From the NCBI RefSeq assembly GCF_014279895.1, contig NZ_CP047954.1, forward strand, positions 1,488,001 to 1,552,000: 64,000 nucleotides of DNA. The letters run 5' to 3'. Each line of letters begins with the position of its first letter. Within the stretch, counting starts at the first letter, position 1. This document shows positions 40,244 to 42,300 of this stretch, piece after piece. Source of the stretch: Synechococcus sp. M16.1 (GTDB lineage: Bacteria; Cyanobacteriota; Cyanobacteriia; PCC-6307; Cyanobiaceae). A program made the position numbers and the translations under genes. The notes beneath the pieces were generated by a model. It saw only the letters and a list, made by a program, of their open reading frames with translations. It did no database searches and was not told the DNA's origin.

Positions 40244-40831
40244 ATGAAGTTGCTGATCCATGGTCGCAACCTCGAGATCACGCCGGCGTTGCGGGATTAC
40301 ACCCAAACCAAATTGGAGCGGGCCACATCGCACTTCGGTGATGCTGTTCGCGAGGCCGACGTCCATCTCTCCGTGGCCCGCAATCCCCGTGTGCCGCAAC
40401 AGACCGCCGAGGTGACGGTCTTTGCCAACGGCACGGTGATCCGCGCCCAAGAACGCAGTGAAAACCTGTACGCCAGCATCGATCTGGCCGCCGGGAAACT
40501 GGCCCGCCAACTGCGCCGCTGGAAGGAACGCCACAGCGATCACCATCACAGCCACGGCCACAGCGCCAGCCACACCCCCAGCACGGATGTGGTCAACGAT
40601 GCATCCCCCGTTGAAGCCTCCCTTTTGCAAGGGCGCGAGGCGGAACTGCCGGATCCAGGTGTGCGACGAAAATATTTCGCCATGCCGCCCATGGGCCTGG
40701 AGGAGGCACGCCGTCAATTGGATCTGATCGACCACGACTTCTACCTGTTCCGGGAGAAGGAAAGCGATCAGTTGCAGGTGATCTACCGACGCAACCACGG
40801 GGGGTATGGGGTGATTCAGGCTCGTGAGTGA
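40244..40831 (+). CDS. lrtA: long-form ribosome hibernation promoting factor (LrtA)
   Basis: The 195-residue protein has the N-terminal HPF domain that sits in the decoding centre (about residues 1-95) and the C-terminal dimerisation domain (about 135-192, [11 protein letters not shown]) that joins two 70S ribosomes into 100S particles. In cyanobacteria this light-repressed transcript gave the name lrtA. The linker carries seven histidines between residues 97 and 110 ([14 protein letters not shown]). A good Shine-Dalgarno (AGGAG) precedes the ATG at 40244. Confidence 0.94.
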
Positions 40832-40845
40832 CCTCCCGGCCCGCC

Positions 40846-41526
40846 ATGGCTGATTCAGCCCAAGAGCTCCCCGACCTACCCCCCCGGCTTGATCAGGCGA
40901 TACTCGACCCCCTGCTGACCCGGGACCAGCTTCAAGCCCTCTGTGATTCCGGAATGCAGGAGGGCGTGCGGGCCATCTGCACCACACCCCGTCAGCTGCC
41001 GCTGCTGCGGGAACGCATCGGGACGACCGACGCAGGTCCTCGCCTGGTGGCGGTCATCGGCTTTCCCTTCGGAACCATTCCCGCTGAGCTCAAGCTGGCG
41101 GAAGCGGAGTGGTGTGCCGCCCATGGCGCCCAGGAACTCGATGTCGTGCCCGATTTCAGCGCTTTGGCGAACGGCGATTCAGGCGCGTTTGCCGAGGAAC
41201 TCGCCGCACTCTGCGAGCTGGGGCTTCCCGTGCGGGCCGTCCTGGACATGGCCCGTCTGGAGAATGAACAGCTGGAACTGGCCGTGGAGGCCGCCATTGA
41301 TGCTGGCGCTGCGGGACTGCAGACCAGCAACGGCTTTGGCCCGGCTTGCCATGCCGATCAGATCCTTGCGTTGAAACAGCTGATCCGCAAACGCTGCGCC
41401 ATCAAGGCAGCCGGTGGTATCCACAGCCTCAGCCATGCAGGAGACCTGCTGTTGGCGGGGGCCGATCTGCTGGGCACCAGCAGCGCGCCGGCTCTTCTGC
41501 AGGCCCAGCGCCGCCCCGCGGCCTGA
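40846..41526 (+). CDS. DeoC-like TIM-barrel protein lacking the Schiff-base lysine
   Basis: The 226-residue protein follows deoxyribose-phosphate aldolase (DeoC) over its whole length: GFPFGTIP, ELDVVPDFSAL, GLQTSNGFGP, AIKAAGGIHSL and ADLLGTSSAP line up with the family. The Asp of the EVDVV-type motif (Asp99) and the second lysine (Lys187) are kept. The Schiff-base lysine of KTSTGF is Gln159, and the N-terminal DHTLLKP reads DQAILDP. Aldolase activity by the known mechanism is therefore unlikely. I start at the ATG at 40846; a GTG at 40828 overlapping the lrtA stop is also possible. Confidence 0.8.
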   Translation: MADSAQELPDLPPRLDQAILDPLLTRDQLQALCDSGMQEGVRAICTTPRQLPLLRERIGTTDAGPRLVAVIGFPFGTIPAELKLAEAEWCAAHGAQELDVVPDFSALANGDSGAFAEELAALCELGLPVRAVLDMARLENEQLELAVEAAIDAGAAGLQTSNGFGPACHADQILALKQLIRKRCAIKAAGGIHSLSHAGDLLLAGADLLGTSSAPALLQAQRRPAA

Positions 41527-42300
41527 ATGGCAGAACGACGCCTCACCGGACTCGCCCTCAAAGTGGGACCCCTCGGCGAGCACGACCGCCTGCTGAGCCT
41601 GCTCAGTGATGCGGAGGGCGTCAGTCGCTTCGCCGTTCCCGGAGCGCGCCGCCCCAAGAGCAGTCTGGCCGCCGCGGCCCCCCTCACCCTGCTGGAACTG
41701 CAGGTGGGAGGACGCAGCGGCCTGGCCCGGGTGCGACAACTGCGGGTGCTGCGCAGTTTTTCCGGCCTCGGGCAACAGCTGGAAACCCTGGCTGCGGCGC
41801 AGGCGCTTTGTGATCTGTGCCTTCAACTGGCGGCCCAGGACCCTGTGGACGGGCTGCTGGACACGATGCAGCTGCACCTGGAACGCCTGGAGGAGCACCG
41901 AGCTGACCCGGAGCTGGTGCTGGCCGGAACGGTCCAGGCCTGCATCCATCTGCTCACCCTGGGGGGTTATGGACTGCCGTTGCAAACCTGCTGCATCACG
42001 GGCGATCCCCTCGAGCCACCGCTTGGCCAGTGGGACTGGCGCTGCAGCCTGCTGCCGCAGGACGGCTTTGCGATCGATGAGCAGCCTGGGGCGGCGATTC
42101 AGCTGAATCCCTCCGAACTGGCCCTGCTCCAGCGACTGACCCGGGCCGAACTGCCCCGTCGCCGGGACGGTGCGCTGATGGGCCCCCCAGCCGTGTGGCG
42201 CCGGCTGCTGCGGGTGGTTGAGATCTGGAGCCGGACGCATCTGAATCGACCCAGCAAAGCCCTGGCCATGCTGCGAGAGACGCTCCTGGAAGGCGCGTGA
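41527..42300 (+). CDS. recO: DNA repair protein RecO
   Basis: RecO loads RecA onto single-stranded DNA with RecF and RecR. The 257-residue protein has the N-terminal OB fold (LTGLALKVGPLGEHDRLLSLLS) and a helical C-terminal domain. The gene starts with ATG immediately after the DeoC-like stop codon, so the two are co-transcribed. A zinc site typical of some RecO proteins is not evident, as only a pair of cysteines (QTCCIT, near residue 155) is present. Confidence 0.9.
   Translation: MAERRLTGLALKVGPLGEHDRLLSLLSDAEGVSRFAVPGARRPKSSLAAAAPLTLLELQVGGRSGLARVRQLRVLRSFSGLGQQLETLAAAQALCDLCLQLAAQDPVDGLLDTMQLHLERLEEHRADPELVLAGTVQACIHLLTLGGYGLPLQTCCITGDPLEPPLGQWDWRCSLLPQDGFAIDEQPGAAIQLNPSELALLQRLTRAELPRRRDGALMGPPAVWRRLLRVVEIWSRTHLNRPSKALAMLRETLLEGA

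Follow-up and report, generated by a model that had tools for sequence, protein, structure and literature searches.

The locus described here raises the question of what a protein recognised as a deoxyribose-phosphate aldolase (DERA; EC 4.1.2.4, TIGR00126) does when the lysine that forms the Schiff base of this enzyme has been replaced. The gene is located in the window, which is the whole 64,000 nucleotide stretch of Synechococcus sp. M16.1 DNA that was analysed, and its product is referred to below as P0001. The features on which the argument draws are as follows:

40244..40831, + strand: hpf, ribosome hibernation-promoting factor, directly upstream of deoC (TIGR00741, PF02482)
40846..41526, + strand: deoC-like gene for protein P0001 (226 aa) (reading frame, TIGR00126 match)
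40891..40896, + strand: Asp16-Gln17 (residue counts in both clades)
41140..41142, + strand: Asp99, counterpart of the E. coli proton-relay residue Asp102 (alignment)
41233..41235, + strand: Arg130, counterpart of E. coli Lys137 (alignment)
41320..41322, + strand: Gln159, codon CAG, at the position of the E. coli Schiff-base Lys167 (alignment)
41329..41331, + strand: Asn162 codon, counterpart of E. coli Thr170 (alignment)
41404..41406, + strand: Lys187, counterpart of E. coli Lys201 (alignment)
41527..42300, + strand: recO, DNA repair protein, its first base directly following the stop codon of deoC (TIGR00613, PF02565, PF11967)

The NCBIfam model TIGR00126 scored P0001 at 122.2 bits, above its cut-off of 117.3, and the best match of the protein in the PDB was a solved DERA (E 8e-25). 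By these scores the match to the DERA family is beyond chance, and the initial annotation was right in aligning the protein with deoxyribose-phosphate aldolase. In the complete 2.11 Mb genome TIGR00126 matches P0001 alone, and no second DeoC was found with either this model or PF01791, although the Pfam model is blind to P0001 too and also misses its Lys-bearing relative L237. Alignment with the DeoC of E. coli MG1655 (L162) pairs Gln159 with Lys167, Asp99 with Asp102 and Lys187 with Lys201, while further pairs are Asp16 with Asp16, Cys45 with Cys47, Arg130 with Lys137 and Asn162 with Thr170. The same counterparts for Gln159 and Lys187 were obtained in a HMMER alignment to the Thermus DERA 1j2w. 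The reading frame, the coordinates, the CAG codon and the E. coli and Thermus alignments all agree with the claim that Gln159, within the motif QTSNGFG, replaces the Schiff-base lysine, and the counterparts of Asp102 and Lys201 are kept as had been described. An artefact or misreading of Gln159 was ruled out by the CAG codon and by the occurrence of Gln in 69/99 loci of the family. P0001 contains four lysines (83, 177, 182 and 187), of which Lys187 alone is the counterpart of an active-site lysine. In the predicted model Lys177 and Lys182 fall in the helix and turn that precede strand 7, and thus the check for another lysine at the Lys167 position, which the initial annotation had proposed, returned none in either alignment or model. 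The further difference pointed out there, DQAILDP in place of DHTLLKP, is present but only partly special, as many Lys-bearing relatives read DHALLDPH. The loss of Lys137, where P0001 has Arg130, is an additional change that had not been noted before.

According to PMC6016325, the Schiff base of the E. coli enzyme is formed on Lys167, whose pKa is lowered by Lys201; Lys201 and Asp102 are both members of a proton relay, and no exchange of Lys167 is tolerated without loss of function. P0001 has Gln159 where the strand-6 Schiff-base lysine stands in DERA, and retains the relay pair as Asp99 and Lys187. Like DERA it has the barrel, the counterparts of Asp102, Lys201 and Cys47, the phosphate-loop glycines and a score just over the cut-off, and unlike DERA it has Gln for Lys167, Arg for Lys137 and Asn for Thr170. 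On the alignments P0001 is thus to be placed within the DeoC fold and sequence family, yet without the catalytic lysine by which a DERA is identified.

The AlphaFold model of P0001, built with 73 aligned sequences, had a mean pLDDT of 94.2 and a pTM of 0.90 and its strands alternate with helices as in a barrel, so that a DERA-type TIM-barrel fold is predicted with confidence. The best 48 rows of the VIA list for this model are DERAs or designed E. coli DERA variants (Z 25-33), with 1mzh superposing at Z 33.0 and an rmsd of 1.4 over 215 residues. The first structure beneath this DERA block is MJ1099 (4rc1; Z 19.1, 191 residues, rmsd 2.6), which we take to be an MfnB-type enzyme of the methanofuran pathway, and which differs from the DERAs in its far lower Z and shares 15 % identity with P0001. 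These structural matches, together with the score just over the cut-off of the equivalog model TIGR00126, would be expected if P0001 were still a deoxyribose-phosphate aldolase acting by another route, with weak or rescued activity and a correct annotation. This is considered very improbable, given that Lys167 and Lys137 are both gone, that no other lysine stands at position 167, and that exchange of Lys167 abolishes function in the account of PMC6016325. Gly171, Gly204 and Gly205, listed as phosphate-site residues of the E. coli enzyme in PMC7671976, have their counterparts in Gly163, Gly190 and Gly191 of P0001. Together with Gly210 and Thr211, these three residues show no variation across the 64 Gln-clade rows outside genus g17, a genus on a very long branch that is dealt with below. 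Lys172, which provides the phosphate counter-charge in E. coli, is Phe164 in P0001, as it is in many canonical short DERAs, and Phe or Trp is also found here in canonical cyanobacterial DeoC. The phosphate site may still be working, as a few conserved glycines suggest.

A homologue of deoC was found in 283/300 genomes sampled from the family (Cyanobiaceae) and in 195/196 of its good-quality genomes, with good quality defined as completeness of at least 90 % and contamination of at most 5 %. Residues were read in 100 family loci, comprising all 23 from the genus of the strain itself together with one or more from each of 50 among the 52 other genera with a match; this represents 51/53 matching genera, with G055 and G057 left out. 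The sequence of one locus (L061) ends before site 159, and among the remaining 99 loci this position is occupied by Gln in 69, Ile in one (L047) and Lys in 29. The initial annotation had proposed a survey of whether the substitution is fixed among relatives, and the answer is clear-cut at the level of the genus: in the 99 loci the lysine is absent throughout 32 genera and present throughout 19, and no genus is mixed. A set of 80 named loci, which overlaps with the 99 and includes several of the same genomes, comprised 57 Gln and 23 Lys types. Every Prochlorococcus-named locus has Gln, and the Lys type occurs under the names Cyanobium, Vulcanococcus, Candidatus Synechococcus spongiarum, SynAce01, several other Synechococcus and unspecified cyanobacteria. 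The genus name Synechococcus therefore covers both types. Read from the organism names, the Gln branch would correspond to the marine branch. The Lys-bearing DeoC of the family, such as that of Vulcanococcus limneticus (L237; 54 % identity to P0001), resembles P0001 in its lipB-hpf-deoC-recO gene order and differs from it in having Lys159, Lys130, His17 and Ser or Thr162.

For the phylogeny, a tree of 106 rows was constructed with column 159 deleted beforehand, 24 loci from outside the family serving as outgroup and 18 near-identical or partial family rows omitted. All 57 lysine-free family rows in this tree (56 Gln and one Ile) form one clade (SH-aLRT 100; inner branch 0.55), and the loss of the lysine in the Gln clade has a single origin on the gene tree. 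Four changes of state at position 159 are sufficient on the tree, that to Ile being one of them. Of 90 loci read from other families of the class, 87 have Lys, while Gln (L155), Met (L149) and Glu (L274) occur once each; two of the 90 rows (L279 and L304) are truncated in the alignment, and Asp-Lys-Lys was read for them separately. The Gln occurs in family f10 (L155, L247 and L248), where 2/2 genomes combine it with Asn at the Asp102 position and His at that of Lys201. The Met occurs in family f25 (L249-L255), where 7/8 genomes have it in place of the Schiff-base lysine with the counterparts of Asp102 and Lys201 kept. L274, from a single genome of genus g98 in family f6, has Glu for Lys167 and Ala for Asp102, while L270 and L307, both read from the same genus, are canonical and have the Lys. 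L155 and L149 represent separate branches of the tree. In an AU test, a tree constrained to join the sequence from f10 to the Gln clade was rejected (p-AU 0.0002) at a cost of 89 log-likelihood units, for a sample of 37 hand-chosen rows in which the tested group was named after inspection of the tree. The losses in f10, f25 and f6, taken with the one in the Gln clade and with this rejection, imply a minimum of four separate losses of the lysine within the Cyanobacteria. The DeoC proteins of f10, f25 and L274 resemble P0001 in that the Schiff-base lysine is gone and the gene is kept, with a RecO-like gene near L155, L149 and L274, and differ from it in retaining Lys137 and Thr170 and in the absence of Asp102 and Lys201 from f10 and of Asp102 from L274. 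L155 scores 209 bits as deoC despite the replacement of all three catalytic residues, and is directly followed by recO.

Selection on the gene was gauged from dN/dS ratios obtained by simple Nei-Gojobori counting, using pairs with dS of 0.05-1.5. The median was 0.152 in the Gln-type genus of the strain itself (131/253 pairs usable) and 0.19 (9/55 pairs), 0.205 (15/15) and 0.177 (2/10) in three other Gln groups, two of which thus consist of nine and two pairs only, and 0.294 (10/10 pairs), 0.263 (21/21) and 0.307 (55/55) in three Lys groups. With slightly different trimming, values of 0.076 for HPF, 0.138 for DeoC and 0.131 for RecO were obtained in the strain's own genus. The Gln clade is under purifying selection, with dN/dS of about 0.14-0.2. 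A decaying pseudogene was ruled out for most of this clade by these ratios and by the retention of the gene. The loss of a catalytic residue from a protein of the DeoC fold that is kept by selection, as observed in the Gln clade, would be expected of a pseudoenzyme.

Residue changes in the Gln clade extend beyond position 159. Among the 64 Gln-clade rows outside genus g17, Gln159 is found in 63, Gln17 in 62, Cys184 in 62, Asn162 in 61 and Lys187 in 61, while the 29 Lys-clade rows have His17 (28/29), Lys130 (29/29) and Ser or Thr162 (29/29). Position 130 is Lys in 60/60 rows from outside the family, in 29/29 of the Lys clade and in 0/70 of the Gln clade, where it is variable. The newly fixed residues and the freed position 130 indicate that this pocket and its surroundings have been relieved of earlier constraints and placed under new ones. 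At position 99 the 70 Gln-clade rows are divided between Asp (55) and Glu (15), and Lys187 is present in 67/70, being replaced in L112, L038 and L128 (by Gln, Gln and Thr, respectively). Genus g17 (L055-L060) stands apart on a very long branch (4.9), with the motif QFGDGFG, Glu99 and Ser45 at the Cys47 counterpart. Its member L055 scores 56 bits, under the deoC cut-off of 117. Gln159 and Lys187 are retained in all six g17 rows that cover those sites, and a homologue is present in 23/23 of the small g17 genomes. The extreme length of the branch fits a relaxation of constraint in this genus.

Profile matches confirm the hibernation factor upstream and recO downstream, and the recO start abuts the deoC stop, in line with the coupling described in the initial annotation. 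The order lipB (on the - strand), hpf, deoC, recO is common to nearly all family loci of both the Lys and Gln types: HPF adjoins deoC in 99/100 (the exception being L049) and RecO lies beside it in 98/100 (the exceptions being L034 and L061, the latter at a contig end). A RecO-like match was also found in 75/108 further stretches, a set that includes six loci from outside the class, two weak secondary matches and repeats of the same genomes. As the order is identical in the Lys clade, the hpf/recO context does not point to a new role or to the residue change. It bears on the proposal that the frame survives mainly for the coupled translation of recO, with the protein itself being of little import. 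Such a relic would agree with the short distance that separates the RecO start from the stop codon of deoC in most family loci, down to the very next base in the window, with the very long g17 branch, and with PMC5464585, which lists the DERA of S. elongatus PCC 7942 as conserved yet not essential. It is nevertheless improbable, considering the amino acid constraint evident from dN/dS and the newly fixed residues, since a mere leader frame would not keep Gln159 and Asn162.

It had also been suggested that Lys187 may be used instead of the missing lysine. In its full form this means that the strand-7 Lys187 forms the imine, with Gln159 and Asp99 positioning water, and that P0001 still works as an aldolase or lyase of class I, possibly on a different substrate. 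The retention of Lys187 (67/70) and of Asp or Glu99 (70/70) in the Gln clade is consistent with such a relocated Schiff base. A precedent is a laboratory-evolved KDPG aldolase in which the strand-6 lysine was changed to Gln and a new lysine introduced on strand 7, and which is reportedly active. The roles assigned in PMC6016325 to E. coli Lys201, in the pKa of Lys167 and in the relay with Asp102, also speak for it. The suggestion is weakened, however, by the Gln187 of two rows and the Thr187 of one, 3/70 of the rows free of the lysine at 167, which indicate that Lys187 is dispensable in the clade, and by the f10 lineage, where both Lys167 and Lys201 are absent. The use of Lys187 is thus possible and rather unlikely.

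On balance, P0001 is probably a repurposed former DERA whose target, as a substrate or as a signal, is a phosphorylated ligand, with no Schiff base formed at position 167. P0001 would be the orthologue of the cyanobacterial DERA, and the class I aldolase chemistry of Lys167, presumably together with the DERA activity, would have disappeared in the common ancestor of the Prochlorococcus/Synechococcus branch. The pocket would then have been rebuilt, with Gln17, Gln159, Asn162, Asp or Asn134 and Cys184 becoming fixed or nearly so and Lys137 being released, while the barrel would have been retained, as would the glycine loops, which in DERA hold the phosphate. A small phosphorylated ligand would most likely still be bound, either by an enzyme of other chemistry or by a ligand-sensing pseudo-aldolase, and P0001 may be expressed together with hpf and recO. 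The preservation of Asp or Glu99 in 70/70 and of Lys187 in 67/70 rows counts against this repurposing, as it would be odd were all carbonyl chemistry gone, and so does the absence from P0001 of the Lys172 counter-charge for the phosphate. A more far-reaching conjecture, put forward tentatively, is that cyanobacterial DeoC has an old second function that is independent of the aldolase lysine, and that the pocket of the Prochlorococcus/Synechococcus branch, with its Gln17, Gln159, Asn162 and Cys184, was rebuilt into a new enzyme or sensor which even the smallest genomes keep. An old function of this kind would explain why the gene has survived the loss of Lys167 on at least four occasions. The argument of the initial annotation, that the lysine is needed by DeoC chemistry and that another role is therefore probable, gains indirect support from the clade-wide fixation, the purifying selection, the newly fixed residues and the retention of the gene. 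A gene named as an aldolase that is without its essential lysine across the Prochlorococcus/Synechococcus branch, and that is under selection with new conserved residues, probably has another function.

The wider pathway was searched for differences between the two types. Matches to the nucleoside phosphorylase model PF01048 occurred in 23/23 genomes of both types and do not discriminate Lys from Gln types, while PF02885, likewise matched in 23/23 genomes, was uninformative, with mostly frames of 345-412 aa that are taken as TrpD-like genes. DeoB (TIGR01696) was found over its cut-off in 0/24 cyanobacterial genomes of the Lys and Gln types, by which only an E. coli-type DeoB is unfound in both. 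Weak TIGR01696 matches in 11/24 genomes, with frames of 541-691 aa, are taken as another mutase. A tblastn search gave 14 records of the phage collection, named for Listeria, Salmonella, Enterococcus, Staphylococcus or simply 'Bacteriophage', with no cyanophage name among them. In the literature searched, where subscription journals are thinly covered, no account of a lysine-free DeoC in cyanobacteria was found, and the accessible part of PMC2431125 is silent on such proteins.

The naming model scores P0001 as an aldolase, and metabolic models of these cyanobacteria may thus hold a reaction that the cell is unable to run through the established mechanism. The substitutions, if confirmed, would provide a natural series of Lys, Gln, Met and Glu at one catalytic position, with at least four losses, in which to follow the repurposing of a class I aldolase barrel, and would pose a specific and testable puzzle in a gene that almost every good-quality genome of the family contains.

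Two minor observations may be added. Within genus g5, the protein of L092 has Lys at the position of Lys167 and Glu at the Lys201 counterpart. In the window, an in-frame GTG shares bases with the stop codon of hpf in the sequence GTGA at 40828-40831, 18 bases before the deoC ATG, and the GTG at 40828 is a possible alternative, translationally coupled start of deoC.
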